49,412 nt of DNA from NCBI GenBank assembly GCA_001789635.1, contig MGAF01000052.1, positions 12,308 through 61,719 of the forward strand. The letters are read 5' to 3'. Source of the DNA: Candidatus Roizmanbacteria bacterium RIFCSPLOWO2_01_FULL_35_13. GTDB taxonomy: Bacteria; Patescibacteriota; Microgenomatia; UBA1406; GWC2-37-13. This document shows positions 1,769 through 25,388 of this stretch, piece by piece. The position numbers were made by a program, and so were the translations under genes. The notes below the pieces were generated by a model. The model did no database searches and was not told where the DNA came from. It worked only from the letters and a program-made list of their open reading frames with translations. The stretch's first letter is position 1; every line of letters starts with the position of its first letter.

Positions 1769-3025
1769 TTATTTTGAAAAGAAGGAGGTCCAGTCGGAGA
1801 TTGGCATTACATTCTCTAAACTAAAATTCCAGGCGTATAGATAAATAGCAGGCAATAATATAATTAAGGTTAATAAAAACTTCTTAGTTGTAAAAAATCT
1901 CTCGAAGGCTATTACTGCAAAGGGCCACAAAGGCAAACTGTAACGGCTAATATCCCTGTGCTGAACGAAAACGGTTGCCACATAAAAGATCAAACTGAAA
2001 TAAAAAAAACTTCTATACTTCATATCTTTTAACCAGACTACCGCCATAAGATAGAAAAAAAAGTAAAAGAAAATATCCTCCAGCCAGGCTGTTCCTACCC
2101 ACTGAGCATCGTAATTAAAAGCTGCAAATGGTGAAACCAGATGTATATTATCACCGGAGTGAAAATAGGCAAAAAAATCCTTGTACTGGATTTGGTAAAG
2201 AAAAAAGACAAGTATCAACCCTATAGGGATTAATAACAAATAAAGATATTGCCAATTAAACCACATGTCATGCTGAACTCGTTTCAGCATCTGATTTTTA
2301 GAAACAGATCCTGAAATTATTTCAGGATGACGTAAATATCTAAAATATTTCTCAGCAAAAACCAATAAATATGCTCCAAACAAAAGTACACCGGGTGTTT
2401 TTGTCATTGCTGCCAATCCTCCAAATATTCCTGCTAATAAATATTTTCCTTTCTCAAAAAAGAATAATGATAATAAAATAAGCAGAATAAAAAGACTTTC
2501 AGGCGCTCCTACCGATCTGACGATCAAAAATCTTGGCAACATTAAAAACACAAATGTAAGCACTAAAGGAGACTTAGTTAACTTAAACTGTTTAACTAAA
2601 TAATAAAAAAATACGGCAAGAGCCATTGTTACGCTGACGTTAACAACGATAGTTGATTTAGAATAGTTAAAAATTGGAGCAAAAAGACGGACAAGCAACG
2701 GATATAAAGGAAGATGGGCAGAAAAATACTTAACATCATAAGAAATAGGCAGAATAAATTTCTCGATTAGCGACGGAATATAGAGAGTTTTTGCTGCAAC
2801 CGCATATAAAGGCCCGTCATAATGACTATAAATATAGAGAAAGTCTGATTTTGGTATTGTCAGACCAAACCAAAATGTAGCCCTAAATAAAAAAGGTGAC
2901 CAATAAACAAACGTACTTATCAAAACAATCCCGATTACGGCCAACAAGCCAGAAACAGTCTTGTTCCTGGCCATGTCAGGAATCGTATGGTTCCTGGTAA
3001 AATAAGAAAATATGTTTCGAAACAT
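1769..3025 (-). CDS. PIG-V/GT-C-like membrane mannosyltransferase
   Basis: This is a 418-residue polytopic membrane protein with many hydrophobic segments. The first extracytoplasmic loop has YSHYDGPLYAVAA (D70), followed by FSAHLPLYPLLVRLFAP. This resembles the W-D/FPLYP pattern of PIG-V-type mannosyltransferases, which use a polyprenyl-phosphate sugar donor outside the membrane. Residues about 232-253 (PEIISGSVSKNQMLKRVQHD) are encoded by an in-frame palindromic element at 2267-2331. The 5' end overlaps the divergent gene at 3012 by 14 nt, and a TAAAAT box lies 7 nt before the ATG. Its C-terminus is duplicated as a remnant at 1269-1410. Exact substrate unknown. Confidence 0.75.
   Translation of the reverse strand: MFRNIFSYFTRNHTIPDMARNKTVSGLLAVIGIVLISTFVYWSPFLFRATFWFGLTIPKSDFLYIYSHYDGPLYAVAAKTLYIPSLIEKFILPISYDVKYFSAHLPLYPLLVRLFAPIFNYSKSTIVVNVSVTMALAVFFYYLVKQFKLTKSPLVLTFVFLMLPRFLIVRSVGAPESLFILLILLSLFFFEKGKYLLAGIFGGLAAMTKTPGVLLFGAYLLVFAEKYFRYLRHPEIISGSVSKNQMLKRVQHDMWFNWQYLYLLLIPIGLILVFFLYQIQYKDFFAYFHSGDNIHLVSPFAAFNYDAQWVGTAWLEDIFFYFFFYLMAVVWLKDMKYRSFFYFSLIFYVATVFVQHRDISRYSLPLWPFAVIAFERFFTTKKFLLTLIILLPAIYLYAWNFSLENVMPISDWTSFFSK
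2267..2331. repeat. Palindromic element inside a GT-C gene
   Basis: 65 bp, from GTCATGCTGAACTCGTTTCAG to TTATTTCAGGATGAC, with two inner inverted arms. It adds about 22 hydrophilic residues to the host protein without a stop or frameshift. Confidence 0.85.
2998..3003 (+). promoter_or_regulatory. -10 box for gene at 3012
   Basis: TAAAAT preceded by CTGG, 8 nt before the ATG at 3012. It lies inside the coding sequence of the divergent gene. Confidence 0.5.
3012..3025. other. Perfect 14-bp palindrome carrying both start codons
   Basis: ATGTTTCGAAACAT reads the same on both strands and begins each of two divergent genes. Both proteins therefore start M-F-R-N-I and the genes overlap head-to-head by 14 nt. 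Confidence 0.9.
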
Positions 3026-4559
3026 TAGAGTAATTTTACCAGTACTTGTAATAATGTTGGCTATAATCCTGCGTTTTTATAAATTCGGGGAATTTGTAAC
3101 ATTCTTAGGAGACCAGGGCAGGGATGCAATTATTATAAAAAGAATCGTAACTTTGGAGCATTTTCCGGCTATCGGAGCCCCAAGCTCTTTAGGACAAATT
3201 TTCTTAGGCCCTTTTTATTATTATCTGATCTCGCCGTTTCTTTTACTTTTTAACTTTAATCCTGTCGGACCTGCTTTCGGAGTTGCTTTTATAAGTATTG
3301 GCGGTATTATCACTTCTTATTTTGTAATAAAAAAAGAAATTAATTATTTAACCGCTTTGGTCTTTCTGGTTTTTGCGTCTTTCTCTACTGTTAATGTCCA
3401 ATTTTCCCGCTTCTCCTGGAATCCCAATTTGCTTCCTGTTTTTTCATTTCTGACCATTTATTTTTTTTATAAAACATTAGCGCAAAAAAATAAATTACAT
3501 GCACTATTATTCGGAGCCTTTCTATCATTCTCTATTCAACTCCACCACTTAGCTATTCTATTATTCCTTCCGATAACCTCTATTTATCTTTATTATTTTA
3601 TTCGTCATTCTGGCAAGCGAGGAACGAGCGCGTCCAGAATCGTTGTCCAAAATGAACTACGATTCCGGACGAGTTACAATCCCTTTAGGGACCGGAATGA
3701 CATTATAAATTTAACATTATCTTTTGGCTCATTCCTCTTCTTCTCACTTCCCCTTCTTATCTTTGACCTTCGCCATAACTTTCTGAACACCAGAAATATT
3801 TTTAATTTTTTCCTGGTAGGTAATCCGACCGACCGTGGACAATTCTTTGCGAGATTTTTAGAAACAAATAAATCTTTTTACTCCTACGTTTTTCAAATAA
3901 ACTTCAACACTTACCTGGCTTTTTTGATCACCGCAGCTTTTATTATTTTTATTTTTAGGAAATTCCAATTCAAAAAATATCTTTTTATTTATATCAATTT
4001 GTTAGTTTTTATCTCATACCTTTTCTTTTTTAGCTTTTTCAATACTATCCGAAATCCTCATTACTATAATTCTATTTACTTCAGTTTTTTTCTGCTTTTA
4101 GCTTGGACAATAACTAATATTTTAAAAACTAAGTTAATAAAATTATTAGCCCTTTTATTTGTCGTACTAGCTTATATTTTTTTAAACCTAAAAAGTTTAT
4201 CGTATCTATTTTATGCAAAAGGTAATAACCAGATAAAAAAAGCTGAGATTATAGCCGAAAGCATCTTGCAAAAAGTTCCGCAAATACCATTCCAAACTAT
4301 AGCTCTACCTTATGTTGAAACCGACGGACACATCAGATACTACCTGGAAATAAAAGGAAAAAGACCCCTGCCTGCGGACACACTTCAAGAACCATTGGAG
4401 CTGTATGTTCTTTGTTTCGAAAAAGACTGCCAGGTCCTGGGCAATCCGCAATGGCAAATCGCCAGCTTTAAAGATGCCGAAGTTGATAAAATATGGACTG
4501 TTGAAGGAGTAAAAATATACAAATTAATCCACAATAATAGTTTAGATATTAGAAATTAG
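3012..4559 (+). CDS. GT39/PMT-like membrane glycosyltransferase
   Basis: 515 residues with about ten or more membrane segments. The first external loop carries FLGDQGRDAI (D34 and D38), in the position of the acidic catalytic motif of GT-C enzymes; the gene at 25345 has the same DQGRD motif. A hydrophilic C-terminal domain follows the last helix (from about residue 405). Residues about 198-230 (starting RHSGKRGTSAS) come from an in-frame palindromic element at 3604-3701, placed just after a helix. It heads a plus-strand run reaching 10988. The last codons lie in a tandem TTAGATATTAGAAA repeat. Acceptor and sugar cannot be told from sequence. Confidence 0.8.
   Translation: MFRNIRVILPVLVIMLAIILRFYKFGEFVTFLGDQGRDAIIIKRIVTLEHFPAIGAPSSLGQIFLGPFYYYLISPFLLLFNFNPVGPAFGVAFISIGGIITSYFVIKKEINYLTALVFLVFASFSTVNVQFSRFSWNPNLLPVFSFLTIYFFYKTLAQKNKLHALLFGAFLSFSIQLHHLAILLFLPITSIYLYYFIRHSGKRGTSASRIVVQNELRFRTSYNPFRDRNDIINLTLSFGSFLFFSLPLLIFDLRHNFLNTRNIFNFFLVGNPTDRGQFFARFLETNKSFYSYVFQINFNTYLAFLITAAFIIFIFRKFQFKKYLFIYINLLVFISYLFFFSFFNTIRNPHYYNSIYFSFFLLLAWTITNILKTKLIKLLALLFVVLAYIFLNLKSLSYLFYAKGNNQIKKAEIIAESILQKVPQIPFQTIALPYVETDGHIRYYLEIKGKRPLPADTLQEPLELYVLCFEKDCQVLGNPQWQIASFKDAEVDKIWTVEGVKIYKLIHNNSLDIRN
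3033..3038 (-). promoter_or_regulatory. -10 box for gene starting at 3025
   Basis: TAAAAT on the minus strand, preceded by CTGG, 7 nt before the ATG at 3025. It mirrors the box at 2998-3003 and lies inside the divergent gene. Confidence 0.5.
3604..3701. repeat. Palindromic element inside a GT-C gene
   Basis: 98 bp, starting GTCATTCTGG and ending ACCGGAATGAC. It is built of two hairpins joined by GAATCGTTGT and ACGATTC arms. It is the same length as, and the inverse orientation of, the copy at 19622-19719. Confidence 0.9.
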
Positions 4560-5322: not shown

Positions 5323-5383
5323 GTCATTCCCGCGAAGGCGGGAATCCAGAATTGAATAGATTCCGGATCAAGTCCGGAATGAC
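5323..5383. repeat. Palindromic element, intergenic
   Basis: 61 bp, GTCATTCCCGCGAAGGCGGG to TCAAGTCCGGAATGAC, with two internal hairpins. It resembles the copy at 21360-21419. Confidence 0.85.
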
Positions 5384-5395: not shown

Positions 5396-6763
5396 ATGAA
5401 AAAAACAATTATAGAGCTTTTAATTTTACTTTGCATTTCATTATCTATTATTTTTTTCCAATTTAACCAGGTTCCAAAAAAACTTTCCTGGGACGAAGTA
5501 GAATTTACCAGACTGGCACTCGATCTTGAAAATAAACCCTACACTCCCTACAGCCGGTTAGCCACTGGGCACTCAACCCTTTACTTCTATATTATTCTTA
5601 GCTCTATCAAAATTTTCGGGCTGACTAATTTTGCCCTGAGATTGCCATCAGCACTATTTGGAGTACTAAATATTTTAATCTTTTATTTAATTACCAGCTT
5701 GGTTTTCACAAAAATAAAATATTTTTCAAATAGCTTTCTTAATAGCTCTTTTATCCCATTTCTATTATCTGTTATCTTAATTTCTTCCCGCTGGTATTTT
5801 AATTTCGCCCGTTTTTCTTTTGAAGCAACTTTTTTGTTGTTTTTGGAACTCTGCTCTATCTATTTTTTTATAAAGTTTGTGCAGTCGTCATTCTGGCAAG
5901 CGAGGAACGAGCGCGTCAAGAATCGTAGTTCTGAACCACGATTCCGGACAAGTTATAATCCCGAGCGGGGAAAATCGAGGGACCGGAATGACGTAAAAAA
6001 TCTAATTATTTCAACGGTTTTTTCCGGCCTCGCCTTCCTTTCCTATTATCCCGGAAGGATTTTTTTTCTTTTGCCTTTAGGATTTTTAGTATTTTATTCT
6101 CCGAAACGATTACTAAAAAGAAATCTTTTAATATTTACTACCACTTTCATTCTTATCAGCTCTTCTCTTATTACCTATCTTGCCACAGATAAAGATCTAA
6201 GAATACAGGAGCAACTTTTTATTGCAGATAAAAAATTAACTATTAAAGAAAAAGTTTCCTACTTGGGATTGAATACAATTAAACTGGGATATATGTTTAC
6301 TCACTCCGGCGATCTTAACGGCAGACATAACTACCCCGGTAAAGCTCTTTTTAATCCAGTTACCGGAGCGTTCTTTCTTTTTGGTTTTCTGGTAGCCTTA
6401 ATTCACCTTAAAAATTACTATAATCAGTTTTTTCTCTCCTATTTTATTTTGAGTTTAATTCCGGCATTGTTCACATACCCTGCAGAAAACCCAAATAGCT
6501 TAAGAACATATACGGCCATTATTCCCTCAATCTATTTTTTAGGGAACGGTTTGATTTACCTATTTCAATCTGAACAAAAATCTAAAACGCTTTTACTACA
6601 TGTAATTCTTTTTTTACTAGTACTTTTTGCATTATCATCCTTATATGATTTCCGGACTTATTTTCTTTATCAGAAAGTGGTTTTTACCAAGGCATTTGAA
6701 CTTAACGGATCAATTCAAAGAATTTTAAATCTCAAACTATGGGAAAAAACTGGGGAAATTTGA
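5396..6763 (+). CDS. GT39/PMT-like membrane glycosyltransferase
   Basis: 455 residues, polytopic. The N-terminal helix is followed by LSWDEVEFTRLA (D33, E34), the acidic loop of the dolichyl-P-mannose:protein mannosyltransferase-like family. NFALRLPSALFGVL is a common family segment. Residues about 164-199 (FWQARNERVKNRS...) derive from an in-frame palindromic element at 5887-5992, read in a different frame from the copy in the gene at 3012. Its 3' end overlaps the next gene by 25 nt, which suggests coupled translation. Substrate unknown. Confidence 0.8.
   Translation: MKKTIIELLILLCISLSIIFFQFNQVPKKLSWDEVEFTRLALDLENKPYTPYSRLATGHSTLYFYIILSSIKIFGLTNFALRLPSALFGVLNILIFYLITSLVFTKIKYFSNSFLNSSFIPFLLSVILISSRWYFNFARFSFEATFLLFLELCSIYFFIKFVQSSFWQARNERVKNRSSEPRFRTSYNPERGKSRDRNDVKNLIISTVFSGLAFLSYYPGRIFFLLPLGFLVFYSPKRLLKRNLLIFTTTFILISSSLITYLATDKDLRIQEQLFIADKKLTIKEKVSYLGLNTIKLGYMFTHSGDLNGRHNYPGKALFNPVTGAFFLFGFLVALIHLKNYYNQFFLSYFILSLIPALFTYPAENPNSLRTYTAIIPSIYFLGNGLIYLFQSEQKSKTLLLHVILFLLVLFALSSLYDFRTYFLYQKVVFTKAFELNGSIQRILNLKLWEKTGEI
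5887..5992. repeat. Palindromic element inside a GT-C gene
   Basis: 106 bp, GTCATTCTGGCAAGCGAGGA to GACCGGAATGAC. It is close to the element at 3604-3701 but carries extra bases (GAGCGGGGAAAATC) near the right arm. The reading frame stays open. Confidence 0.9.
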
Positions 6764-7891: not shown

Positions 7892-9466
7892 ATGAAACTC
7901 TTAACACAACACCTGCTATTAATAATATTTCTGACTTTTTATTTCTCTTTTACTGCTTACAAATTTGTTTCTCACCCTACACCTTTTTTCGATTGGGACG
8001 AATCTATAAATGTGCAAGTAGCTAAAGAAATGATCGAACAAAAATCCTTTGTACCGCTCTGGCAAGGCAAAGCCTGGCTTGATAAACCACCGCTTCCCTT
8101 TCTTTTCCTTGGAGTAATAATGAAATTGACTCCTTTTTTACAACCGGAGATATCTCTACGACTTACTTCGTTATTTATATCTATTGTCGCCCTGGTTTTT
8201 ATTTATCTAGTTTTTCTTAAGGCAAGCAATAGACTTATAGCAACATTAACAGTAATAATCACTTCATTCACCCCAATCTTCCTTCAACGTTCACAAATTG
8301 TGAACTTAGACGTGTTTCTGCTTATCGGGTGGCTTGGATATCTGTTATTCGTTCAACATTTTTGGTTAAGTTTATTTTTCCTTACTATTTCTATTCTGAC
8401 CAAATCTCTCATTGGCCTCTACCCTGTCGTGATTCTATTGATTTATTATTTATATCGTTTTTTCATCCTGAAAATTAATAAAAAAATACTGTCAGAACAA
8501 TCTAAAACTCTAATCAATATACAGACGGGGATACGAACGATATTTATTCAGATTAGCCTGTTATCAATATGGTATTTAGTTATGCTATTGGTCTTTAAAG
8601 AGCAGTTTTGGCAACAACACATTGTTGAAACGCACTTCAAGCGAGTGACCGCGTCAATCGAATCGCACTTCGGCCAACGAACCTACTATATCGACCTTAT
8701 TCATGAACAACTTGGATTCTTCTTCTGGCCATCGCTTATCGGACTCGGTTTAGTCATTCTGAGCGCAGCGAAGAATCTAGCGAAGCCAGGTACAGTCCTG
8801 TACCTGGCGAAGCATAAAAACTACGATTGGGTTTTGTATTCGCTTTTTTTAATGCCCTGGTTTGTCTTCCTCAATCTAACCAAAACCAAAATCTTCTGGT
8901 ATCTCTATCCTGCTATTCCCCAGTTCGCCTTTCTTGCCGTTTATCCGTTTCATGTCATTCTGAACGGAGCGAAGCACAGTGAAGAATCTAGCGGCAGTGT
9001 AAAACGCACACTCCGTTCGCTAGATCCTTCGCTTTTTCTCAGAATGACAGTGACACTTTTGATAATTGCCTTTATTTTTCATCAAAACTTTATCAAAACC
9101 AACTTCTTCACTACCTTCTATTCTAAACCCGAAGACTATTACCGCCTGGCACTTTTTGCTAAAGATCGCTGCGATTCGTTAACTTTTCTGGTCGGAAAAG
9201 AAACCCGCGAAGCAACCAAAACTATCGAAAATTTGGGATTAACTATCGCTTCCACTAAACAATGGGGAGATCATCCCTCAATTGTTTACTATTTTGGAAA
9301 ACGTGTAAATTTTTTTTATGACAAAAATCTGTTGGAAGATAAACTACTACAGCTTTTTAAAAATACCTGTTTAGCTATCCGCAATGATGATTTAAATTCA
9401 AGTTGGGAAAATAAGCACTTTACACTAATAAAAAACTTTAATTCATATTATCTCTTTAAACGGTAG
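7892..9466 (+). CDS. ArnT/PMT-like membrane glycosyltransferase
   Basis: 524 residues. FFDWDESINVQVAKEM (D34, D36, E37) followed by GKAWLDKPPLPF is the typical first loop of GT39/GT83 enzymes, in which the acidic pair acts in transfer from a lipid-linked sugar. Two palindromic elements lie within the gene: 8753-8812 (residues about 288-307) and 8954-9048 (about 355-386, giving FHVILNGAKHSEESSGS). Both sit in loops between helices. The extracytoplasmic C-terminal part is hydrophilic. It starts 4 nt after the upstream stop. Confidence 0.8.
   Translation: MKLLTQHLLLIIFLTFYFSFTAYKFVSHPTPFFDWDESINVQVAKEMIEQKSFVPLWQGKAWLDKPPLPFLFLGVIMKLTPFLQPEISLRLTSLFISIVALVFIYLVFLKASNRLIATLTVIITSFTPIFLQRSQIVNLDVFLLIGWLGYLLFVQHFWLSLFFLTISILTKSLIGLYPVVILLIYYLYRFFILKINKKILSEQSKTLINIQTGIRTIFIQISLLSIWYLVMLLVFKEQFWQQHIVETHFKRVTASIESHFGQRTYYIDLIHEQLGFFFWPSLIGLGLVILSAAKNLAKPGTVLYLAKHKNYDWVLYSLFLMPWFVFLNLTKTKIFWYLYPAIPQFAFLAVYPFHVILNGAKHSEESSGSVKRTLRSLDPSLFLRMTVTLLIIAFIFHQNFIKTNFFTTFYSKPEDYYRLALFAKDRCDSLTFLVGKETREATKTIENLGLTIASTKQWGDHPSIVYYFGKRVNFFYDKNLLEDKLLQLFKNTCLAIRNDDLNSSWENKHFTLIKNFNSYYLFKR
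8753..8812. repeat. Palindromic element (partial) inside a GT-C gene
   Basis: It starts GTCATTCTGAGCGCAGCGAA and continues into a CCAGGTACAG...CTGTACCTGG hairpin, but lacks a clear ATGAC right end. The right boundary is approximate. Confidence 0.65.
8954..9048. repeat. Palindromic element inside a GT-C gene
   Basis: 95 bp, GTCATTCTGAACGGAGCGAA to TCTCAGAATGAC, with inner CTAGCG and CGCTAG arms. It is the same type as 1037-1125. Confidence 0.88.
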
Positions 9467-9482: not shown

Positions 9483-10988
9483 ATGTTTGATATTTTTGGA
9501 ATAATTTCGTGGATTAAAAAAAATATTAGTAGAAAAGATTTGCTATTTATTTTTCTTCTCGTCTTTATTTATTTCTTAACAAGACTATATAATCTTGATC
9601 AGTTTCCTATTTTTTCCGATGAAGGAATTTATATTCACTGGGCCAAGGTAGCCTGGCATGATGCCTCCTGGAGATTTGTTTCACTTACCGATGGTAAACA
9701 ACCCTTACAAACCTGGGGGACTATTCCTTTTCTAAAGCTTTTTCCGGAAAATGCTCTTCTTGCAGGCAGACTATTTTCGGTTGCGACCGGATTGGCAGGA
9801 TTAATTGGAATATTTACACTTCTTTATTATCTGTTCAACAAAAAAACGGCATTAATTGGAAGTTTTATTTATGTTTTTACGCCTTATTTTCTTTTTTACG
9901 ACCGGCTCGCTTTAGTTGATTCAGGAGTAAACGCAGCTTTTATCTGGATATTTTTCCTTTCAGTTCTTCTGGCAAGAACCAGAAGGCTTGACACGGCTTT
10001 ATTATTCGGACTGGCAACAGGTTTCTCGCTTTTGGCCAAATCGTCAGTAAGAATATTCCTTGCACTTTCCACCCTATCCCCCATTCTTTTTTTTGAAAAG
10101 AATGTAAAAAAAATTATTTCTAAAGCAATTAACTACTATTTACTATTTTCAATCTCATCTGTCTTAGCCTTAGTAATTTATAATGTGCAGCGTCTATCAC
10201 CGTTCTTTCATTATGTGGCTCTTAAAAATACTACATTTATTATGACTTTTGACGAGTTTTTGAAAAACCCGTTCGCTAATTTTTGGCACAACATCCAAAT
10301 TATTCCTGAATATACAATTAACGAGTCAGGATTTATTTTAATTATTTTTGCAGCTATCGGTCTTTGGCAATTATTCAAAAAAGATAAAAATCTTTGTTTA
10401 TACTTTGTTTCCTGGATTTTGATTCCTTTCCTTACGATAGCCTTTTTATCTAAAGTTATTTTTCCCAGATATCTGATATTTTTCGGAAGTATTTTTGTAA
10501 TTTTATCAGCTTATTATCTCTCTAATATCAAGAAATACATTATTCCTTCACTATTACTAATAGTCTTTTTTTCCTTATACAATTACACGATTTTATTTGA
10601 CTATGCCATAATTCCCTTTCCCGAGATTGATAGGGGCCAATATGTCGAAGGGGCAACAGTCGGAATAGGTGCCAGGGAAATCGTCGACTTTGCACGGGAA
10701 AAGTCAAAAAATAAAGAAGTAATTCTTCTTGCCGAAGGTAACTTCGGCTTAATCGGTGACGTATTGGATGTATTTACAAAACCGGGTGACAAAATATTTA
10801 TCAAAGGCTACTGGCCTTTGGATGAAAAAGCATTATTTGAAAATCAGAAAGAACTGGATAAAAAACATATCTATGTCGTATTTGCCCAAAAAAAAGACTT
10901 TCCTCAAGAATGGCCTCTTAAATTTATCAGGAAATATGATAAACCCGGTAACAAATCAACCATCTACCTTTTTGAGCTTCTTAAATAA
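9483..10988 (+). CDS. GT39/PMT-like membrane glycosyltransferase
   Basis: 501 residues, polytopic. The first external loop reads FPIFSDEGIYIHWAKVAW (D46, E47), with KQPLQTWGTIPFLKLFP downstream, as in PMT-family proteins. FYDRLALVDSG in the third loop is another family feature. A soluble C-terminal domain of about 115 residues follows the last helix. A separate -10 box precedes it, so it may be transcribed independently of the genes upstream. Its last 33 nt overlap the convergent gene at 10956. There is no inserted repeat. Confidence 0.82.
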   Translation: MFDIFGIISWIKKNISRKDLLFIFLLVFIYFLTRLYNLDQFPIFSDEGIYIHWAKVAWHDASWRFVSLTDGKQPLQTWGTIPFLKLFPENALLAGRLFSVATGLAGLIGIFTLLYYLFNKKTALIGSFIYVFTPYFLFYDRLALVDSGVNAAFIWIFFLSVLLARTRRLDTALLFGLATGFSLLAKSSVRIFLALSTLSPILFFEKNVKKIISKAINYYLLFSISSVLALVIYNVQRLSPFFHYVALKNTTFIMTFDEFLKNPFANFWHNIQIIPEYTINESGFILIIFAAIGLWQLFKKDKNLCLYFVSWILIPFLTIAFLSKVIFPRYLIFFGSIFVILSAYYLSNIKKYIIPSLLLIVFFSLYNYTILFDYAIIPFPEIDRGQYVEGATVGIGAREIVDFAREKSKNKEVILLAEGNFGLIGDVLDVFTKPGDKIFIKGYWPLDEKALFENQKELDKKHIYVVFAQKKDFPQEWPLKFIRKYDKPGNKSTIYLFELLK

Positions 10989-12803
10989 TACCCAACAAGT
11001 AAATACAAAGGCGGATAATGATATAAAATTTGCAGTATTTCGAACAGCTGTATTTTCAAAAGTAAATTTAATAGTTTGTCTACCTATAGGGATGTTAGTT
11101 GTTATTAATCTAAAATCATTATCATCTTTTATTTCAACTTGCTGATTACCTAGATAAGCTTTCCAACCCGGGAAATTATAGGTATTCAATCTAAAAATCA
11201 TAGGCGTTTTTGCATCGACTAAAAACTCTTTGTCTTGAAATTTATTTTTAAGAACCGCTACTCTACCCTGACCTGAAATAATTTCATAAGATTTTTTTGG
11301 CAGATCCTTTTTTTCAATAGCTAATAATGTCGTATTTAATTCCGACTTTTTGGTTTTAACATCTTTTGGCACAAACTCATAAGAAGTTCTGCTAATTCGC
11401 CAGGAAATCTCATCAAAAGAAGTTCTAACTTTGTCATTTGTAAGAATATATCTCTGTGGTTTAAAGTATTTTTGATAGGTAAAAATCGTACCTAAAATCA
11501 ATACGACTGTTACTACAGATGTAATTGACCGCCGTAGCAATATATTCAACCTCGGGTGTTGAATATATTGTTCTAATAACTTAAATAAGAAATAAATACA
11601 ATATCCTCCAATTATTGAAATAAAAATTGCTGAGAAAGTTAAAAATCGCCAGGGGAACTGCAGATACCAAAGATACTTGACTCTGTCCCAGATAAAAGAA
11701 GAATATTCCGTTGTCATAAAGAGACTCAATAATAGAAGAAAGACAATGAAATAAAATAAACTCGTTGTCGTTCTGGGGATCCGCCAGTTGGCGGAGACTC
11801 CAGAATCAGATTCTGGATGCGCCAGGTGCAAGACTGTACCTGGCTTACCAGAATGACGAACATGCGTAAAAAAATAATAAATAAAAGACAAAATTATAGC
11901 TCCAATTGCTAATCCTATATGAATTTTGCCAAGCTGAAATGTCATTCCGTCTGACAATCCTAAGCCAGATCCTCCATATCCCCAGGGAGAATAAATAAAC
12001 TGTTGAGGGTGAATGAAATGAAGTTTATAGCTGGCAAGTTCTCCGGTTAAAATTATATCCGTTAAGGTGAACTTTCTTTCCGCCATTGAGGGGAACCAAA
12101 AAAAAGCCGAAAAACTCAATCCAATCAAACCTCCCAAAAAAGTACATTTAATGAATTCTTTCTTTTTATCCGCCTGAAAAAAATAAAACAGAAAAAAAAG
12201 TCCGATAAAAATTAAGGTGGGTAGGGTAATTAAAGGATGTGTGAGAATTAAAAAAGCCAAAGTTATTCCGAAATAAATCACATTTCTCCAATTCGTCTTA
12301 TAAGACAAATTCTCCAAGACCAAAAAAACAAACGGCAGGACAGCCAGACTGAAAAATTCCGCCAGCGCTCCTCTAACATAGATTAAGACCGCATGATAGA
12401 AAAAATAAGTATATAAAGTAGCGCTTAATAAGGCCGATAATCTGTTGGTAAGTTTTTTCACTAATAAGTACATTCCTATAGCTCCCAGATAAAATCCTGA
12501 AATAAAAACCAACTTAATCGACCAAATCAAAGAAAAACCTAAAATATGAAACAATTCCCCAATATAATAAATCAGCGACGGATAAAAATTAAAGAGCGGA
12601 TAGCCGAAGCCGAAGCCAAGACCGCCGACCCATCTTGGATATAAGTATCCCTGTTTTAATCCCTCGTCTAATAGAAATAACCTTACAATATGTTGGTCGT
12701 CGTGAATGGAAAAATACTGGTTGTTTAAAATTCGGAAGAAGGCAGGAGCTGTTATAATAAAAAGAAGCAACAGATCAACAATAATTAATTTTACCCTATG
12801 CAT
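10956..12803 (-). CDS. YfhO/PTPS-related large membrane protein (putative GT-C)
   Basis: 615 residues. The N-terminal helix is followed by FSIHDDQHIVRLFLL (D35, D36), then YPRWVGGLGFGFGYPLFNFYP. This is the pattern of '6-pyruvoyl-tetrahydropterin synthase-related' membrane proteins, a misleading name for a GT-C-like family of unknown substrate. About 12 membrane segments precede an extracytoplasmic beta-rich tail (about residues 455-595) ending in one helix. Residues about 316-346 (RHSGKPGTVLHLAH...) come from an in-frame element at 11766-11857. Its start overlaps the divergent flippase start (ATGCAT), and a TATAAT lies 6 nt before the ATG. Confidence 0.75.
   Translation of the reverse strand: MHRVKLIIVDLLLLFIITAPAFFRILNNQYFSIHDDQHIVRLFLLDEGLKQGYLYPRWVGGLGFGFGYPLFNFYPSLIYYIGELFHILGFSLIWSIKLVFISGFYLGAIGMYLLVKKLTNRLSALLSATLYTYFFYHAVLIYVRGALAEFFSLAVLPFVFLVLENLSYKTNWRNVIYFGITLAFLILTHPLITLPTLIFIGLFFLFYFFQADKKKEFIKCTFLGGLIGLSFSAFFWFPSMAERKFTLTDIILTGELASYKLHFIHPQQFIYSPWGYGGSGLGLSDGMTFQLGKIHIGLAIGAIILSFIYYFFTHVRHSGKPGTVLHLAHPESDSGVSANWRIPRTTTSLFYFIVFLLLLSLFMTTEYSSFIWDRVKYLWYLQFPWRFLTFSAIFISIIGGYCIYFLFKLLEQYIQHPRLNILLRRSITSVVTVVLILGTIFTYQKYFKPQRYILTNDKVRTSFDEISWRISRTSYEFVPKDVKTKKSELNTTLLAIEKKDLPKKSYEIISGQGRVAVLKNKFQDKEFLVDAKTPMIFRLNTYNFPGWKAYLGNQQVEIKDDNDFRLITTNIPIGRQTIKFTFENTAVRNTANFISLSAFVFTCWVLFKKLKKVDG
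11766..11857. repeat. Palindromic element inside a GT-C-like gene
   Basis: 92 bp, GTCGTTCTGGGGATCCGCCA to GGCTTACCAGAATGAC, with CCAGAATCAGATTCTGG at the centre. The left end has one mismatch to the usual GTCATTC. Confidence 0.85.
12786..12791 (+). promoter_or_regulatory. Possible -10 box for flippase gene
   Basis: TAATTT with 6 nt to the ATG at 12798. It is weaker than the box on the opposite strand. Confidence 0.3.
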
Positions 12804-17054: not shown

Positions 17055-18658
17055 TGCTTACAAAAAAGTTACTTTTTATTTTATTTGTCTTATTTATATT
17101 AGTCCGCCTGCCTTTTCTTGACCAAATCAATCTACTTCCTGACGAACGCGACATTGCGTTATCCGGTTGGTCGATAGCACAATCCGGTAAAGACCTCTTC
17201 GGCAAACCGTTTCCGCTGGTTTTTGAAAATATAAGTCCAAATAATCCATTATTTGCAATATATTTTGCAGCACTCTGGTTCTTTTTTATACCGATAAAAT
17301 CCGTGTTTCTTGCCAGGCTTCCCTTTGTTCTGATCTCTTCCCTACTTGTATTTATCGTATTTGAAATAGTTAGACAGATTTCTAACGATGATAAAAAATC
17401 ACTTATAACGACTGCTGTTTTATGTTTTAATCCCTGGATTTTCCACATCACAAGACTGGCTCTCGACATTCCGCTTGCCATGGTATTTCTTTTTTCCGGT
17501 GTCCTTTTTTACCTTAAAAAAAAGAAACTAATGGCACTAATATTATTTTTTCTAACAGTTTTTACCTATCAAGGTTCACGACTCCTTATTCCTTTTCTTT
17601 TGATTTACCTGGAAATATTTTTCCTGATTAAGAAAAAATCCTGGAAGTCTTTCGCATTTAATTCTTTCAAAAATCTTTTATTTGTTATTTTTCTAGTAAT
17701 AATAGCTTCGTTTTTAGAGCCTGGAATAAGTAAAAACAGATTATCTGAAATTATTTTCTTTAATAACGAAAAAAATTCCCAGACGGTAATCTTTAACAGA
17801 AATACAAGCATCGCTTCTCCCCTAGTTAAGCGTGTTTTCGATAACAAATTAAGCGTATCAATAGATAAGATTGTACTCAATTTTACCAAAGGTTTGGATT
17901 TGAGTTATCTGTTTAAAACCGGCGATTATAGCCCGTTGAACGGCAACGCAACAACTGGACAATTTTTATTTATTTTTATACTTTTTTATTTCTTAGGAAT
18001 AGTTTCCATTGGTAAAAAAAGTGCAGTCAGTGATTATTATCTAATAGGCTTCATTCCACTTGGAATGATTCCTGCTTTATTGAGCACTCTTGGGCTTACA
18101 TTTTCCATAAGGGGTGTTCTATCCTCTTTAGGTTACAGCTACCTTATAGCATCGGGAATAATTTTTTTCTCTCAACATGTAAATAATTCCAAATTAAAAA
18201 AAAATATTTTACTTGTCGTAGGAGTTGCATTTGTTATAAACCTGACTTATTTTATATACGGGTATTATGTACGAAGGCCCATAACTATCGGTGAATTGTT
18301 TTATGAAAATGAACGACAATTGTCGGTATTTTTACTTAAAGACAACTCACCTTACACAATATATCATCAATTACCCCGGAATGCCTTTTTGAGCTATATT
18401 TTTTTCAAAAATGAAAACCTTAATCTTAAAGAAGTTCAGAATAATCTAACAGGCAAAAATTATTTATATAAAAGCAAAGCGTTCCTGAAGTGTAATCATA
18501 AAGTTAATTATGTCAAAATAAAAAAGGCTGTAATTCATGAAGCTTGTCTTGAAAAAGACACTTATGATTTATTAAGTGATATCAATAACCCTAAAGTAAA
18601 GTATAGAATTCCGTATAAAGACTTTTCCCAAAAGTTTGTCTATTTTGTAATTAAGTAA
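17054..18658 (+). CDS. GT39/PMT-like membrane glycosyltransferase
   Basis: 534 residues. The first loop reads NLLPDERDIALSGWSIAQSGKDLFGKPFPL (cut by the loop helix), with D30/E31 as the acidic pair. The G-x-D-x-F/Y-G-x-x-x-P-L segment is typical of PMT-like proteins of this lineage; compare TGRDEYGSFMPL in the gene at 30038. About ten membrane helices precede a C-terminal soluble domain from roughly residue 410. The ATG overlaps the previous stop (TAATG). The 3' end overlaps the convergent gene by 19 nt. No repeat is inserted. Confidence 0.82.
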   Translation: MLTKKLLFILFVLFILVRLPFLDQINLLPDERDIALSGWSIAQSGKDLFGKPFPLVFENISPNNPLFAIYFAALWFFFIPIKSVFLARLPFVLISSLLVFIVFEIVRQISNDDKKSLITTAVLCFNPWIFHITRLALDIPLAMVFLFSGVLFYLKKKKLMALILFFLTVFTYQGSRLLIPFLLIYLEIFFLIKKKSWKSFAFNSFKNLLFVIFLVIIASFLEPGISKNRLSEIIFFNNEKNSQTVIFNRNTSIASPLVKRVFDNKLSVSIDKIVLNFTKGLDLSYLFKTGDYSPLNGNATTGQFLFIFILFYFLGIVSIGKKSAVSDYYLIGFIPLGMIPALLSTLGLTFSIRGVLSSLGYSYLIASGIIFFSQHVNNSKLKKNILLVVGVAFVINLTYFIYGYYVRRPITIGELFYENERQLSVFLLKDNSPYTIYHQLPRNAFLSYIFFKNENLNLKEVQNNLTGKNYLYKSKAFLKCNHKVNYVKIKKAVIHEACLEKDTYDLLSDINNPKVKYRIPYKDFSQKFVYFVIK

Positions 18659-20415
18659 ATATTAATTGATTTATTCTCGAAGATTTTTTTGCTATTTTTT
18701 GGCTTACACTTAATCATAATTTTTTCTTGGTCAATTAACTTTCTGATTTCGTAAACATAATCTACCTCTTTTAAAATTGAACAGTCCATCTTCTTTAGAC
18801 TTTCCAATCTTTTTTTATAGGGGACACCGGTTAATCTGAGTTGAAGTATATTGGCTAAATATTCCTGTTTACCCGATAATGCCGCAACATAAGCTGTATC
18901 TTCATAAGCATATAGTAAATTAGATTTTTGGTAGTTTTTCCATTCCTTATTGTAAAGATGAGTCAAAACTATTCCGGCTGTCTGTTTTTTAAGAAAATTT
19001 AGCGCCTTTATTTCGTCGACCGACACATAAGCTGCTCCGGGAGCAACCGCAAATAAACGGATCAAATCCAAAGAAGTCGGAATAGAAAGTAATAATATAA
19101 CTGATGCCAATCCAATTAATATTAATTTCTTTGATTTAATCAAATCATAAACTAAGTGAGTCAAATAAATTGTTAGCAAAAAAATTGCATAGAAAAAAAA
19201 CTGTATAGTATTCCACCATTCTGCTTTCTGAACTAAAGTAACGGTTAGAAGTATTGAAAAAAAGATAGTGAGAACAACTGTTACATCAAATCTATCTAAC
19301 TTTCTTCTCAAAGTCTGAATCGCTATGTAAAAAAAAGCAAAGAATCTGGTTCCTAAATAAAAAAATAAAAATAAAGTAAGATTCACAAACTCAATCCAAA
19401 TAAATCTTGGACCGATTCTTCCCTGCGCCATAATATAATATCGAGCATCAGTCAAATCGCGTAAATAAAAATTACCCGGCTCTTCAGTAATCGTATGAAC
19501 CAAGGCAAACGGCGACCATCCGAATACCGAACCGGTTTTGAATGATCTTATCGGATCATAGAACAATAAAATACTACAAATGATTAATAAACAAATGATA
19601 AATAAATATTTAATTTTTAACGTCATTCCGGTCCCTAAAGGGATTGTAACTCGTCCGGAATCGTTGTTTAGAACTACGATTCTGGAGTCATCGCCCAATC
19701 GGCTCTTCCCCAGAATGACATGAGTCATAACCATAAAAATACTTATTACTCCTCCGTAGAATTTCAATCCCATAATCAAAAAAATACATATACCCATTAT
19801 TAATACCCTCTTAAGATTTAGATTTTTTTCTTTCATTAAAATCAAAATTATGAGAAAAGGAATTAAGGAGAAAGCATATGGAAGATTAGACATAGAATGC
19901 ATAATCGGCTGAGGAAGAAGCGTAGATGATCCATTCAATGTTTTATCATGCATTAAAGTTAACAAATAGGAAAAAGAACCGGTAAAATAACTCAGAAAAA
20001 GAAATACACCTACAAACATAGGTGAATCTTTAATTTTTCTGGCAAGATTTAAAAGTAAGGTCGTAAAAAGAATAAACCAAACAACCGGTAATAATTTGAA
20101 ATAAGAGAAAATGGCCGAAATTCCAATTTTCGAAAGTAAGAATATAAAAAAATCCAACAAATAGTTATATCCATACAGATTCTCTCCGGAGAAAGTTGGC
20201 GCTATAAAAGGAAACTTATTGAATGATACATTCGCTATCGCCAAATGCCAGATTGCATCATGTCCGTGTACGCCCCAGAAATTGATCCCACATGCATCTT
20301 TAAAACAAAAAAATGTACCGCTGGGAAAAATAACGAGCATGTAGAGAAAAAAAGCCGGCAGGATAATTAAAAGTAAGAATTTGTACTTTTTGATATAATC
20401 AAAAACAGATCTCAT
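18640..20415 (-). CDS. Large polytopic membrane protein, putative GT-C
   Basis: 591 residues with about 12 or more membrane segments. The long first loop has GVHGHDAIWHLAIANVSF, an Asp/His-rich motif in the place where GT-C enzymes carry their catalytic acid, and later GENLYGYNYLLDF. I do not recognise a named family; the topology and setting suggest a glycosyltransferase. Residues about 233-265 (from SRLGDDSRIVVLNNDSG) are encoded by an element at 19622-19719. A TAAAAT lies 4 nt before the ATG. The C-terminal roughly 140 residues are soluble. Confidence 0.65.
   Translation of the reverse strand: MRSVFDYIKKYKFLLLIILPAFFLYMLVIFPSGTFFCFKDACGINFWGVHGHDAIWHLAIANVSFNKFPFIAPTFSGENLYGYNYLLDFFIFLLSKIGISAIFSYFKLLPVVWFILFTTLLLNLARKIKDSPMFVGVFLFLSYFTGSFSYLLTLMHDKTLNGSSTLLPQPIMHSMSNLPYAFSLIPFLIILILMKEKNLNLKRVLIMGICIFLIMGLKFYGGVISIFMVMTHVILGKSRLGDDSRIVVLNNDSGRVTIPLGTGMTLKIKYLFIICLLIICSILLFYDPIRSFKTGSVFGWSPFALVHTITEEPGNFYLRDLTDARYYIMAQGRIGPRFIWIEFVNLTLFLFFYLGTRFFAFFYIAIQTLRRKLDRFDVTVVLTIFFSILLTVTLVQKAEWWNTIQFFFYAIFLLTIYLTHLVYDLIKSKKLILIGLASVILLLSIPTSLDLIRLFAVAPGAAYVSVDEIKALNFLKKQTAGIVLTHLYNKEWKNYQKSNLLYAYEDTAYVAALSGKQEYLANILQLRLTGVPYKKRLESLKKMDCSILKEVDYVYEIRKLIDQEKIMIKCKPKNSKKIFENKSINIYLITK
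19622..19719. repeat. Palindromic element inside a GT-C-like gene
   Basis: 98 bp, GTCATTCCGGTCCCTAAAGG to CTTCCCCAGAATGAC. It is the reverse-orientation relative of the 98-bp copy at 3604-3701. Confidence 0.9.
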
Positions 20416-20429: not shown

Positions 20430-20525
20430 GTCATTCTGGGGAGCGACAGCGACTCCAGAATCGTTGTTAGATTCTGGATGCGCTTCTCGACTTCGATCAC
20501 TTCGATCGAAGCTTACCAGAATGAC
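20430..20525. repeat. Palindromic element between divergent genes
   Basis: 96 bp, GTCATTCTGGGGAGCGACAG to AAGCTTACCAGAATGAC, filling the space between the starts at 20415 and 20539. An extended reading frame from 20464 into the next gene is translated repeat, not protein. Confidence 0.88.
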
Positions 20526-20538: not shown

Positions 20539-21375
20539 ATGACTAATTCAAAACTGGCATTAATAAATGTAATCTACGAGAATTATACCGTACTTGGTGA
20601 CTTCTTAAAAAGCCTGCTTAATCAGACAAATAAAGATTTTTATCTTATAAATATTGATTTATCAATTCATAGATCCGCCATTAATCTCAATAAAATTGCG
20701 GGTGAAACAATATATTCAGAAAACAAAGGTTATGCTCATGGAGTCAATGTTGGCCTGAAAAAAGCTATTAAAGACGGGTATGAATATTTTTGTATTCTTA
20801 ATAATGACATATATTTCAAAAAAGATTTTATTCAGAATGCCCTAAATTCTATTCGAAAACATTCTACATCTATCATCGGTGGAAAAATATATTATGCGCC
20901 CGGTTATGAATATCATAAAGACCGTTATAAAAAGTCAGACCTGGGTAAAGTTATCTGGTATGCCGGCGGATCCGTAGACTGGAATCACGCACTAACTCCA
21001 CATTCAGGAGTTGATGAAATAGATCGGGGACAATTTAACACTTTTAAAAAAGTTGAATTCGCCAATGGCGCACTGGTACTTTTTGATAAATCTGTCATCA
21101 ATAAAGTTGGTTTTTGGGACGAAAGTTATTTTCTTTATTTTGAAGACGCTGACTTTTGTGTGAGGGCAAAAAAAGCCGGAGTAAAAATATATTATGATCC
21201 GGCCATAGTAATTTGGCATAAAGTCTCTCAATCTACCGGGGGATCAGGATCAAATATTCATCAAAAATATCAAAGAAAAAACAGATTAAAATTTGGATTA
21301 AAATATGCTCCGCTTAGAACCAAGCTTCACTTGATAAAAAATTACGTGTTTGACCTTTTGTCATTCCGCACTTGA
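20539..21375 (+). CDS. Family 2 glycosyltransferase, rhamnosyltransferase-like
   Basis: 278 residues from the ATG at 20539. I prefer this start because the frame back to 20464 is inside a palindromic element, and a TATTAT box lies 4 nt upstream. KLALINVIYENYTVLGDFLKS starts the fold (20 or fewer residues shown per segment). ENKGYAHGVNVGLKKAI and FCILNNDIYFKK give the donor-binding and DxD-like motifs. GALVLFDKSVINKVGFWDE, then FEDADFCVRAKKAG, are hallmarks of the WcaA/RfbF-type rhamnosyltransferase group. The last residues (LSFRT) are encoded by the start of the element at 21360. Confidence 0.85.
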   Translation: MTNSKLALINVIYENYTVLGDFLKSLLNQTNKDFYLINIDLSIHRSAINLNKIAGETIYSENKGYAHGVNVGLKKAIKDGYEYFCILNNDIYFKKDFIQNALNSIRKHSTSIIGGKIYYAPGYEYHKDRYKKSDLGKVIWYAGGSVDWNHALTPHSGVDEIDRGQFNTFKKVEFANGALVLFDKSVINKVGFWDESYFLYFEDADFCVRAKKAGVKIYYDPAIVIWHKVSQSTGGSGSNIHQKYQRKNRLKFGLKYAPLRTKLHLIKNYVFDLLSFRT

Positions 21376-21419
21376 TGCGGAATCCAGATTAAATAGATTC
21401 CCGCTTTCGCGGGAATGAC
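21360..21419. repeat. Palindromic element bridging two genes
   Basis: 60 bp, GTCATTCCGCACTTGATGCG to TTCGCGGGAATGAC. It supplies the last codons and TGA of the upstream glycosyltransferase, and its ATGAC end provides an extra in-frame ATG (21415) for the next gene. Confidence 0.88.
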
Positions 21420-21423
21420 AATT

Positions 21424-22755
21424 ATGTTGAAAAAACACTTACTTCTTTTACTTTTAATTTCGGGTCTTATATTTAGAATTGCAATAAGTTTTAATACATA
21501 TAGTGGTGATGTTACTAATCACATGATCTGGGGTGAAGATGCAGTGAAACATGGTTTACCGGGATATTATGAAAGAAATTTTGAAAAACTCTATGGCCAT
21601 ACTTCTCCCAACTACCCACCTTTAGCAATACTTTTCTTTTCTTTTCTCTATCTTATTAAGGAATGGATTTATCAATTTGCCTGGTTTCTGAATTTTCATA
21701 TTTCTTTTTTCCCGTCTAATTTTATTTATTTTCTTAAAGATTTTGATTATTACCCCTACCTTCTAAAGTTCCCGGCTATATTTTCAGATATCGGCATTGC
21801 CTGCATAACATATCTTTTCGCACAAAAGATCGTTGGAAAGAAAAAAACAAAATGGCCAGTTATCGCTTTATTGTTAGTTTTGTTTAATCCGGCCTATTTT
21901 TACAACAGCGCTTATTGGGGCCAAACCGATTCCATTCCCCTATTTTTTTTATTAACTTCATTTTTTCTGCTAATTTATCGAGGAAAAATTCTTACCTCTA
22001 CAGTCCTTTTTACTCTCGGAATTCTATCCAAACAAACGGTAGTAATATTTATACCTTTATATTTAATAATACTTTACCGATTAATCAGTCTGAAGACATT
22101 GGTTAAGATTTTTTTAGTTTCCTTGTTAGTCTTTTGGTTGTTCTTTCTCCCTTTTTTCCGCCAGGGAAATTTATTAACATACCCATTCACAACTTATTTG
22201 AATAAAATTCTTTTGTCACCCGGAATACCTTTCACATCTAATCATGCCTTTAATATATGGTATTTATTAACAGGTTCACGCCTAACTTTGGCTTCTTCTA
22301 AGTTTATTTTGAATATTTCTCACACAATGTGGGGATATCTGGTAACAGGATTTTTAAGTTTATTAATTCTGTTTAAGTTGTTTCGTCATTCTGGTGAGCA
22401 AAGCGAATCCAGAATCGTTGTTGTAAAAAATATTTTATATGCAGGATTTCTTATACCTCTTGCGAGTTTTTTATTCCTGACCAAAATGCACGAAAGACAT
22501 CTCATTCTTGCTTTGCCATTCCTGCTGCTCTTAACTTACAACAATAAATTTCTATTAGTTTCGTATTTATTTTTATCTCTGTTTAATTTCCTGAATATGT
22601 ACCATAATTGGTGGTTTCCAAATATTCAAATCCTTATGTTTTTTCTTTCTTCGCCTTTAACCATTATTTTTTTAACTTATACCTTAATTGGGGTCTTTAT
22701 TCTTATGCTTAAAAATTATTTTTTTATAAGGAATAAGCAGATAAAGCAAATTTAG
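21424..22755 (+). CDS. GT-C membrane glycosyltransferase (GT87/ALG6-like)
   Basis: 443 residues from the ATG at 21424; an ATG at 21415 belongs to the repeat end. The first loop has YSGDVTNHMIWGEDAV and YGHTSPNYPPLAI. NPAYFYNSAYWGQTDSIPLF and GILSKQTVVIFIPL are typical of bacterial GT-C proteins related to ALG6/ALG8 and GT87. About ten helices are predicted. Residues about 321-333 (RHSGEQSESRIVV) derive from a half palindromic element at 22385-22423. The 3' end overlaps the convergent gene by 72 nt. Confidence 0.78.
   Translation: MLKKHLLLLLLISGLIFRIAISFNTYSGDVTNHMIWGEDAVKHGLPGYYERNFEKLYGHTSPNYPPLAILFFSFLYLIKEWIYQFAWFLNFHISFFPSNFIYFLKDFDYYPYLLKFPAIFSDIGIACITYLFAQKIVGKKKTKWPVIALLLVLFNPAYFYNSAYWGQTDSIPLFFLLTSFFLLIYRGKILTSTVLFTLGILSKQTVVIFIPLYLIILYRLISLKTLVKIFLVSLLVFWLFFLPFFRQGNLLTYPFTTYLNKILLSPGIPFTSNHAFNIWYLLTGSRLTLASSKFILNISHTMWGYLVTGFLSLLILFKLFRHSGEQSESRIVVVKNILYAGFLIPLASFLFLTKMHERHLILALPFLLLLTYNNKFLLVSYLFLSLFNFLNMYHNWWFPNIQILMFFLSSPLTIIFLTYTLIGVFILMLKNYFFIRNKQIKQI
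22385..22423. repeat. Half palindromic element inside a GT-C gene
   Basis: GTCATTCTGGTGAGCAAAGC to CCAGAATCGTTGTT, which is only the left hairpin of the longer elements. It is in frame. Confidence 0.75.
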
Positions 22756-23804: not shown

Positions 23805-23886
23805 GTCATTCTGGGGAGCAAAGCGACTCCAGAATCGTTGTTAGATTCTGGACGCGTCCCGCCAGGGCGGGACTTGCCAGAATGAC
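23805..23886. repeat. Palindromic element, intergenic
   Basis: 82 bp, GTCATTCTGGGGAGCAAAGC to ACTTGCCAGAATGAC. It lies between two minus-strand glycosyltransferase genes. Confidence 0.88.
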
Positions 23887-23900
23887 GTTTATTACTTCAT

Positions 23901-25388
23901 CTATGGTTTGGTTAAAATGGAAAAAGAATTATTTTTTTCAAGTAGTTTGTATTTAATCTCTTTTTTCTTCAGATCATCAACCACCCAGTTTCTTGTTATT
24001 ACGACATAGTTTTTTTCATCAGACTGTATAAATTTTTCCAGGGTTTTTTTATCGTCCGGTAAATAAGCTAAGGGCTGAACATCCTTACCAGAATAAAATA
24101 TTGCAATCGGGAGATAGTCATCATCCAAATAAATTGACCTATTATATTTGCCGGCTGCTCTGGAAATCTCAACATCATCGGGAATCCATTTGTTAGCAGG
24201 ATAAACTTCTCTATAAAAAATTTTAACCTGGAGAAAAGCAATATAAAGAAAAAAAACTAAGTAGAAAAATTTCGAGAGCAATTTTGTCATTCTGGCTTGT
24301 CCAGAATCGATTCTGGAGCCGTCCCGCCTTTGGCGAGACTCCCCAGAATGACGATTTACTAACTGTTTTAAGACGTGATTTACCAATTGTATTCCTTCAT
24401 AAGCTCCAACCGCTATTATCAAACTTAAAGGCAAATACACCGGTATTAAATGCCATAATTCAGTTTCCTTGGAGGTTAAAAATGGATACAGAATTATAAA
24501 ATTCCAAAGTAAAAGATAAAAAATATTCTTTCTAATAAACTTGAACGATATAAGTAAAAATCCGAGAGAACCCAGCCAGATATAATACCACTTTCTCACT
24601 CCCATATGGAGATAAAATAATGGCTGTTCTAACATTGGATGAAAATAGGAAGAAAATTCTTTATTGCGTGTCCCTTTGTGAATAAAATGATATTCGATAA
24701 AATCTTGATAAGTTTTAATATGGTAGCTATACCAGGGAAAAACCGCTAGTGTAAAAAACAAACCTCCAATCAAAATTAAAACAAAATTTTTTTTTATACT
24801 GATAATTTGCCTAAAGTTAAGATACAGAATAAGAATTATTGCCGATATTCCGACTAAAGTTTTTGATAGAATCAATCCTCCAAAACTTATCATTACCAAA
24901 GGAAACCAGTTGAAATTTTTGGCAGATTTTACAGACAAATAAATAGTTAAAACATAAAAAAATACAAAAACAGATTCCAAATTGCCGGATCTAGTCCTAA
25001 TGACATACCAGACAGATGTCCCTAAAATTAATGCTGAGGCAAAACCAATTATTTTTTTTCCAAAAAGCTCTACGCCGATCTTGTACATGAACAAAATAGA
25101 AAAAATCCCTAATAAAGCTGAGGGTAACCTAGTAGTAAATTCGTTAACTCCAAAAAATTTATAAGAAATAGCCATTAACCAAAATCCCATCGGCGGATGG
25201 TCATAATAAGGTTTACCATTCCAAACCATATTCATAAAATCTCCTGTTCTCGCCATGTCTCGTGCAATTGAACCATACCACGCCTCGTCCCAACTTGCGA
25301 GTGTGTTATAATCTAATCGATAAAAGAAGATAAAAGTAAAAAATATGGCTAAAAAAATCATCGGTGCTGCACTTTTTATTTTTGTCAT
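23901..25388 (-). CDS. ArnT/PMT-like membrane glycosyltransferase
   Basis: 495 residues. ASWDEAWYGSIARDMARTGD (D34, E35) followed by GKPYYDHPPMGFWLMA is the canonical N-terminal loop of GT39/GT83 enzymes, and FTTRLPSALLGI follows. Residues about 346-368 (RHSGESRQRRDGSRIDSGQA) come from an in-frame element at 24286-24352. The start at 25388 gives a 44-nt head-to-head overlap with the gene at 25345; an ATG at 25361 would reduce it to 17 nt. I keep 25388 because AAAGGA precedes it and a TAAAAT lies 14 nt upstream. Confidence 0.8.
   Translation of the reverse strand: MTKIKSAAPMIFLAIFFTFIFFYRLDYNTLASWDEAWYGSIARDMARTGDFMNMVWNGKPYYDHPPMGFWLMAISYKFFGVNEFTTRLPSALLGIFSILFMYKIGVELFGKKIIGFASALILGTSVWYVIRTRSGNLESVFVFFYVLTIYLSVKSAKNFNWFPLVMISFGGLILSKTLVGISAIILILYLNFRQIISIKKNFVLILIGGLFFTLAVFPWYSYHIKTYQDFIEYHFIHKGTRNKEFSSYFHPMLEQPLFYLHMGVRKWYYIWLGSLGFLLISFKFIRKNIFYLLLWNFIILYPFLTSKETELWHLIPVYLPLSLIIAVGAYEGIQLVNHVLKQLVNRHSGESRQRRDGSRIDSGQARMTKLLSKFFYLVFFLYIAFLQVKIFYREVYPANKWIPDDVEISRAAGKYNRSIYLDDDYLPIAIFYSGKDVQPLAYLPDDKKTLEKFIQSDEKNYVVITRNWVVDDLKKKEIKYKLLEKNNSFSILTKP
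24286..24352. repeat. Palindromic element inside a GT-C gene
   Basis: 67 bp, GTCATTCTGGCTTGTCCAGA to GACTCCCCAGAATGAC, with CCAGAATCGATTCTGG at the centre. Confidence 0.88.
25307..25312 (+). promoter_or_regulatory. -10 box upstream of gene at 25345
   Basis: TATAAT, 32 nt before the ATG at 25345 and inside the opposite-strand gene. This predicts a leader of about 25 nt, unlike most genes here. Confidence 0.35.

Follow-up and report, generated by a model that had tools for sequence, protein, structure and literature searches.

The window analysed here is a stretch of 49,412 bases with 33% GC, taken from a genome of 1.45 Mb in 61 contigs. It contains a block of glycosyltransferase genes in which short palindromic elements with GTCAT...ATGAC ends lie within the coding sequence, and further copies lie between the genes. 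Among the host genes, five matched PMT_2/PMT or GT87 and one matched PTPS_related in Pfam, the weakest of these falling below curated cut-offs; no Pfam match was obtained for the genes at 18640 and 21415. The genes at 33-49 kb are of other kinds (sigma-70, DnaG, LytR_C, RF, FtsE/X, M23, NTP-transferase), and comparison of element positions with the called genes found no element within them, as the initial annotation had stated. The same annotation had listed nine copies in coding sequence without stops or frameshifts. Translation of the host genes bears this out, as element DNA lies within an open reading frame at all nine positions; seven of the copies are full (2267, 3604, 5887, 8954, 11767, 19622 and 24286), and those at 8753 and 22385 are partial, each without the second GTCAT end. 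It had put the total at about 20 copies. The count here comes to about 18, made up of 15 distinct GTCAT...ATGAC pairs, the two partial copies and the 11767 copy, which starts with GTCGTT.

The elements are assigned to sub-families A to D, and all the genic copies are in frame. A type-D element with CCTGAA/TTCAGG hairpins (2267..2331, minus strand) lies in a GT87-like gene (1769-3025) and encodes the peptide RHPEIISGSVSKNQMLKRVQHD. Type-A elements on the plus strand are found in a PMT_2 gene (3604..3701 within 3012-4559; peptide RHSGKRGTSASRIVVQNELRFRTSYNPFRDRND) and in a PMT_2-like gene (5887..5992 within 5396-6763; peptide SSFWQARNER...RND). The gene 7892-9466 carries two plus-strand type-B copies, a full one at 8954..9048 and a partial one with one GTCAT end only at 8753..8816, and the latter encloses a nested mini-palindrome, CAGGTACAGTCCTGTACCTG, at 8787..8806 between the 7-bp direct repeats GCGAAGC. 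Type A is also present on the minus strand in the genes 10956-12803 (11767..11857, one end GTCGTT), 18640-20415 (19622..19719, peptide VILGKSRLGDDSRIVVLNNDSGRVTIPLGTGMT) and 23901-25388 (24286..24352), the last of which is ArnT-like and has its inserted loop predicted to be disordered and cytoplasmic. Finally, the left half of a type-A element occupies 22385..22420 on the plus strand in the gene 21415-22755.

The intergenic copies include type-B elements at 1037..1125, 39273..39356 (a TTTCGA variant), 47674..47794 and 49167..49274 (with a CCCTTCGACAAGCTCAGGG tip), type-A elements at 20430..20525, with divergent genes on either side, and at 23805..23886, and a degenerate element at 29946..30026. 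The intergenic type-C element at 5323..5383 shows a CGTC-1-like hairpin, ATTCCCGC-GAAG-GCGGGAAT, and a second type-C element (21360..21419) overlaps the 3' end of the gene 20539-21375 and lies immediately upstream of the next gene.

Anatomy and distribution of the elements

A full element is an inverted pair of hairpins, and an unpaired YGTC tag stands at the start of each. This head-to-head layout was recovered in 28 full inverted pairs at a strict threshold and in 42 at a looser one, with none in the control at either. The stems, loops and tails of half-elements were counted in the sample of the own genome and in three relatives, a count that mostly missed type B, which is seen in the window as TTCTGAAC...GAAGAATCTAGCG. 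Type C has the form ATTCCCGC-GAAA-GCGGGAAT-CCA, with a stem of 8 bp in 30 of 34 halves, a loop of 4-5 nt in 27 and the CCA tail in 20. Type D (ATCCTGAA...TTCAGGAT) likewise has an 8-bp stem in 10 of 12 halves and a 5-nt loop in nine. In type A (ATTCTGG...CCAGAAT) the outer stem measures 7 bp in 51 and 9 bp in 26 of 84 halves, the tail is mostly CGT or CGA, and only 19 of the 84 have a 5-nt loop, the others mostly ending in a long variable tip. A second perfect palindrome was present in the tip of 17 of 72 long halves. A pyrimidine precedes GTCAT in 174 of 177 type-A half-sites from named genomes among the matches listed and in 82 of 96 from the sample of the own genome, and this base is T in 33 of 34 type-C halves.

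Within the hairpin loops, a second layer of mini-palindromes of 13-20 bp was observed, the core often being GTCTGAC/GTCAGAC. They are flanked by direct repeats of 5-8 bp of the loop (GCGAAGC, GCGAAAGC, TTTCA), and eight such arrangements were found against one in a shuffled control; examples lie at 8780-8813 of the window and at L093:4079-4093, L093:14943-14957, L097:19081-19093 and L098:2269-2281. These direct repeats look like target duplications or the products of template switching at hairpin tips.

The elements are best compared with the CGTC-tagged REP super-family, defined with its families CGTC-1 to CGTC-4 by Di Nocera et al. (2013; PMC3733652). These REPs have an unpaired CGTC tag (often TGTC), a stem of 8-9 bp, a loop of 4-5 nt and a short, mostly CCA tail; head-to-head dimers predominate, intragenic copies are reported, many of them in repair and replication genes, and no dedicated transposase is associated with them. 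The elements described here share the YGTC tag, the head-to-head hairpin pairs, the presence of some genic copies and the lack of Y1_Tnp alongside. Judged by their sequences, types C and D fall within the CGTC REP definition, with 8-bp stems and 4-5 nt loops common to both, and type C mostly has the CCA tail as well. Type A, the commonest here, has the same tag and dimer layout but differs in its 7- or 9-bp outer stem and its mostly long loops with nested palindromes; it is described as a variant related to the CGTC REPs whose stem and loop lengths lie mostly outside the definition. The initial annotation had likened the elements to REPs or MITEs, and this likeness is supported, the closest defined family being the CGTC-tagged REPs and not the RAYT-linked ones.

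In the same classification, CGTC-1 and CGTC-4 of Rickettsia conorii correspond to the Rickettsia palindromic elements RPE-6 and RPE-4, and it is by this route that the present elements are linked to the RPEs, which were compared by description (PMC3733652; Ogata et al., 2000, 2002, summarised in PMC10969869). As with RPEs, genes of unrelated proteins have been entered in frame, a short polar stretch has been added and intergenic copies exist too. RPEs belong to another lineage, measure about 150 bp and encode a conserved peptide each, whereas the present elements measure about 50-120 bp and are used in all open frames. The reported phyla of CGTC REPs are Proteobacteria, Chlorobi, Bacteroidetes, Spirochaetes and Thermotogae, and not Patescibacteria (PMC3733652). 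The literature searched contained no report of coding palindromes for Patescibacteria or this lineage, and a search of Rfam gave no match.

Throughout the genome the half-site GTCATYYN{6,36}GRATC occurs 296 times, against 13 for a backwards control. The distribution of type-A half-sites across the family is patchy (118 in this genome, 127 in G022, 40 in G010 and none in most other members), as expected of mobile DNA. Most carriers among the public-genome matches listed belong to the Roizman-, Levy-, Davies-, Gottesman-, Curtiss- and Shapirobacteria, and a few to the Magasanikbacteria, Kazan, Howlettbacteria and other phyla; one Rickettsiaceae record holds a type-A-like element, and single metagenome-assembly records among these carriers may be mis-binned. 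Together with its small size, these carriers suggest that the present genome belongs to the Patescibacteria.

Host genes and reading frame

Elements were surveyed in contigs C1-C20 and the window, together 530 kb of the 1.45 Mb, with a half-element finder that returned 91 matches against 5 in reversed sequence and with genes from a simple home-made caller (87% coding). The elements are depleted from genes in this sample, with 18 of 62 located within genes against about 54 expected; two of the 62, on C5, are chance matches. The initial annotation had placed all genic copies in GT-C genes, and this holds within the window but not elsewhere. Beyond the window, hosts in the same genome include Mur ligase, RsmH/MraW, FemAB, a polysaccharide flippase, DUF2298, O-antigen ligase, Alg6/Alg8 and PMT genes. 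In other genomes, long open reading frames span 21 of 63 full type-A elements among the matches listed, and the hosts identified by Pfam include GMP synthase, class I and arginyl tRNA synthetases, DNA polymerase A, RNase H, TatD, polyprenyl synthetase, QPRTase, prepilin peptidase and FemAB. The ATP-dependent DNA ligase is a host twice, with a type-A element at one and the same site in two Daviesbacteria genomes (L121:7131-7215 and L132:6078-6132).

Of 17 host genes in this genome, 14 encode proteins with at least five predicted membrane segments, although genes of this kind make up only 18% of coding bases (p 2e-8). Since the window was chosen for its element density, the fair figure is that obtained outside it, where such proteins make up 7 of 10 hosts against 15% of coding bases (p 1e-4).

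The reading frame was examined in the orthologous block, which was compared across four genomes of the genus, with genic copies judged by homology on both flanks. All 18 genic copies (nine here, six in G003 and three in G001) are open and in frame. Non-genic full elements are open in about 32% of frames, and 18 of 18 would arise by chance with a probability of about 1e-9. The possibility that genic copies hold stops as often as chance predicts is thus contradicted, and none of the 26 pairs of same-strand genes on either side of an element proved to be a split gene. Separately, the G003 orthologue of g12798 (L098, G003:C47), a polysaccharide synthase gene, is split with about 68 residues missing and has no element at the break. 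The lengths of type-A elements modulo 3 (classes 2/1/0) are distributed as 25/10/1 in genes and 19/17/14 outside them, with Fisher p values of 0.003 (class 0) and 0.005 (class 2) for a pattern that was noticed after the fact. Two frame-preserving length classes (1 and 2 modulo 3) are seen instead of one, which is at odds with one simple chemistry of insertion.

The inserted peptides are predicted to be basic and polar, with a mean net charge of +2.1 and a GRAVY of -1.05. Structural models place two of them in loops. For example, in the model of the ArnT-like protein (gene 23901-25388; pLDDT 88, pTM 0.87) the sole segment below pLDDT 50, residues 351-360, occupies the centre of the insert, which has one long helix on each side. 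The best match of this model among solved structures is ArnT (5f15). The C-terminal soluble domain of ArnT is periplasmic, and the helix after the insert leads to the corresponding ArnT-like domain, which suggests that the insert is cytoplasmic; such a placement would fit its positive charge. Likewise, in a moderate model of RsmH (pLDDT 69) the insert forms a low-confidence loop at residues 62-86, with a helix before and a strand after it.

Occupied loops and the origin of the insertions

Gene order is shared with the relatives of the genus, which allows the occupied sites to be compared. The gene 23901-25388 has homologues outside the genus without the insert, and universal sharing of these residues, which would have spoken against insertion, was not found. 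Within the genus, this place is occupied by a different type-A element in G001 and by only short or eroded sequence in G003 and G005. At the 8954 site of the gene 7892-9466, other sub-families occupy the same residue in G001, G003 and, in eroded form, G005; similarly, the residue at which the 22385 copy enters the gene 21415-22755 is occupied in G003 by a type-C element. The RsmH gene holds a type-A element in this genome and in G004, a type-D element in G003 and no element in G001, G002 and G005, and FemAB carries type A here and type D in G002 and G003. Over the orthologous block, seven of nine genic elements of the relatives share their residue with an element of this genome against 0.43 expected, a count in which element-encoded residues could pull the aligner to stack inserts, though the flanking residues match too. 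The differing sub-families in the genes at 3012, 7892, 18640 and 21415 and in RsmH and FemAB imply re-insertion or replacement, and shared ancestry is possible for the sites at which sub-families agree. No common target duplication, such as the one of fixed length that marks a MITE of a DDE transposon, was visible at the 28 full elements. The nearest relative shares only about 79% protein identity, and at this distance neither a clean empty site nor a target duplication could be delimited.

Taken together, these sequence comparisons make it probable that the elements are REP/MITE-like palindromes mobilised in trans, and that selection has filtered their genic copies to frame-preserving insertions in disordered loops. 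They would be non-autonomous mobile palindromes built as head-to-head dimers of YGTC-tagged REP-like hairpins, some belonging to the CGTC-tagged super-family that includes RPE-4 and RPE-6 of Rickettsia and others to a related family whose hairpin tips are enlarged and exchangeable. Some trans-acting activity would have spread them through the genome, insertion itself being suggested by the pattern of presence and absence. Selection would have purged the genic copies unless they kept the frame, as observed, and hit a surface loop, the position in which they are seen, and the survivors would encode basic, polar and probably disordered loops, as their predicted peptides indicate. As the orthologue comparison shows, tolerant loops have been colonised repeatedly, with different sub-families per species, presumably by re-insertion or replacement. 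The RPE-like insertion in frame proposed by the initial annotation is thereby supported by the 18 in-frame genic copies and the insert-free orthologues, and a benefit to the host need not be assumed. As a rather unlikely extension, the elements might home to DNA hairpins, including resident copies, such that a first insertion makes a protein loop a landing pad for palindromes of other sub-families, which later enter the resident copy or take its place. If so, protein loops would be standing entry ports at which one stretch of an essential protein is rewritten over and over by parasitic palindromes.

Several other explanations have to be weighed against trans-mobilised palindromes filtered by selection. 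The inserts could have been domesticated as basic loops that tune glycosyltransferases or diversify surface glycans, e.g., through recombination between GT-C copies. The over-representation of polytopic membrane genes among hosts and the occupation of the same loops in several species would agree with this, but that over-representation is equally expected if membrane proteins offer more tolerant loops. The same elements are also found in unrelated cytosolic enzymes, insert-free orthologues exist, and the peptides at one site are unrelated in sequence between species, which makes domestication improbable.

Mobilisation of GTAG-type REPs or REPINs by a RAYT/Y1 transposase is an explanation that we consider decidedly improbable. 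The inverted pairs of short hairpins and the high copy number resemble those of REPINs, and the genome does encode Y1_Tnp proteins: eight such genes (L041-L048) were found by the search that the initial annotation had proposed. That annotation had seen no transposase in the window; the Y1_Tnp genes lie elsewhere in the genome, and none of the eight could be tied to the elements. The tag is YGTC and not GTAG, none of the eight genes is flanked by GTCAT elements, and the presence of elements across relatives does not track Y1_Tnp; for example, G026 and G035, both incomplete genomes, have elements and no detected Y1_Tnp. A Y1 transposase is thus unsupported as the mobiliser, and the lack of elements around Y1_Tnp genes agrees with the lack of a dedicated transposase for CGTC REPs (PMC3733652). 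At two of the Y1_Tnp loci, L041 and L048, there is a CACCTTTCAGGTG-like hairpin, which may represent a separate REP family that goes with these genes.

The hairpins might instead be skipped by ribosomes or removed at the RNA level, leaving the protein unaltered. The byp elements in the mitochondria of the yeast Magnusiomyces are mobile hairpins in coding sequence that ribosomes skip, and bypass sites require matching take-off and landing codons. The strong hairpins within genes of many kinds, essential ones included, recall this system, but skipping requires neither an open frame nor a length class, whereas the genic copies here are all open and nearly devoid of class 0, and bypassing is accordingly very unlikely. 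Ancestral low-complexity indel loops that merely resemble repeats would account for the variable loop length at sites that lack an intact element, but this is hardly credible given that the insert DNA matches intergenic copies over its full length, both tags included, and that distant orthologues have no inserts.

Coding palindromes were once described as restricted to Rickettsia, and scattered REPs of other bacteria have since been added to them. The Patescibacteria hosts reported here include tRNA synthetases, DNA polymerase A, DNA ligase, RsmH and a whole glycosyltransferase block. The orthologous blocks of several species, with different elements in the same loops, constitute a natural experiment on the tolerance of loops in essential proteins and on the spread of palindromes without a transposase. 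They also give a practical warning for the annotation and modelling of proteins from these genomes. A topoisomerase I (C4:87947-90136) and a MurF-like protein (C15:22442-23821) end in the element-encoded tails NVIPAKAGIQKKTL and LSFPRRRESI, respectively, and hence elements also supply C-termini and stop codons.
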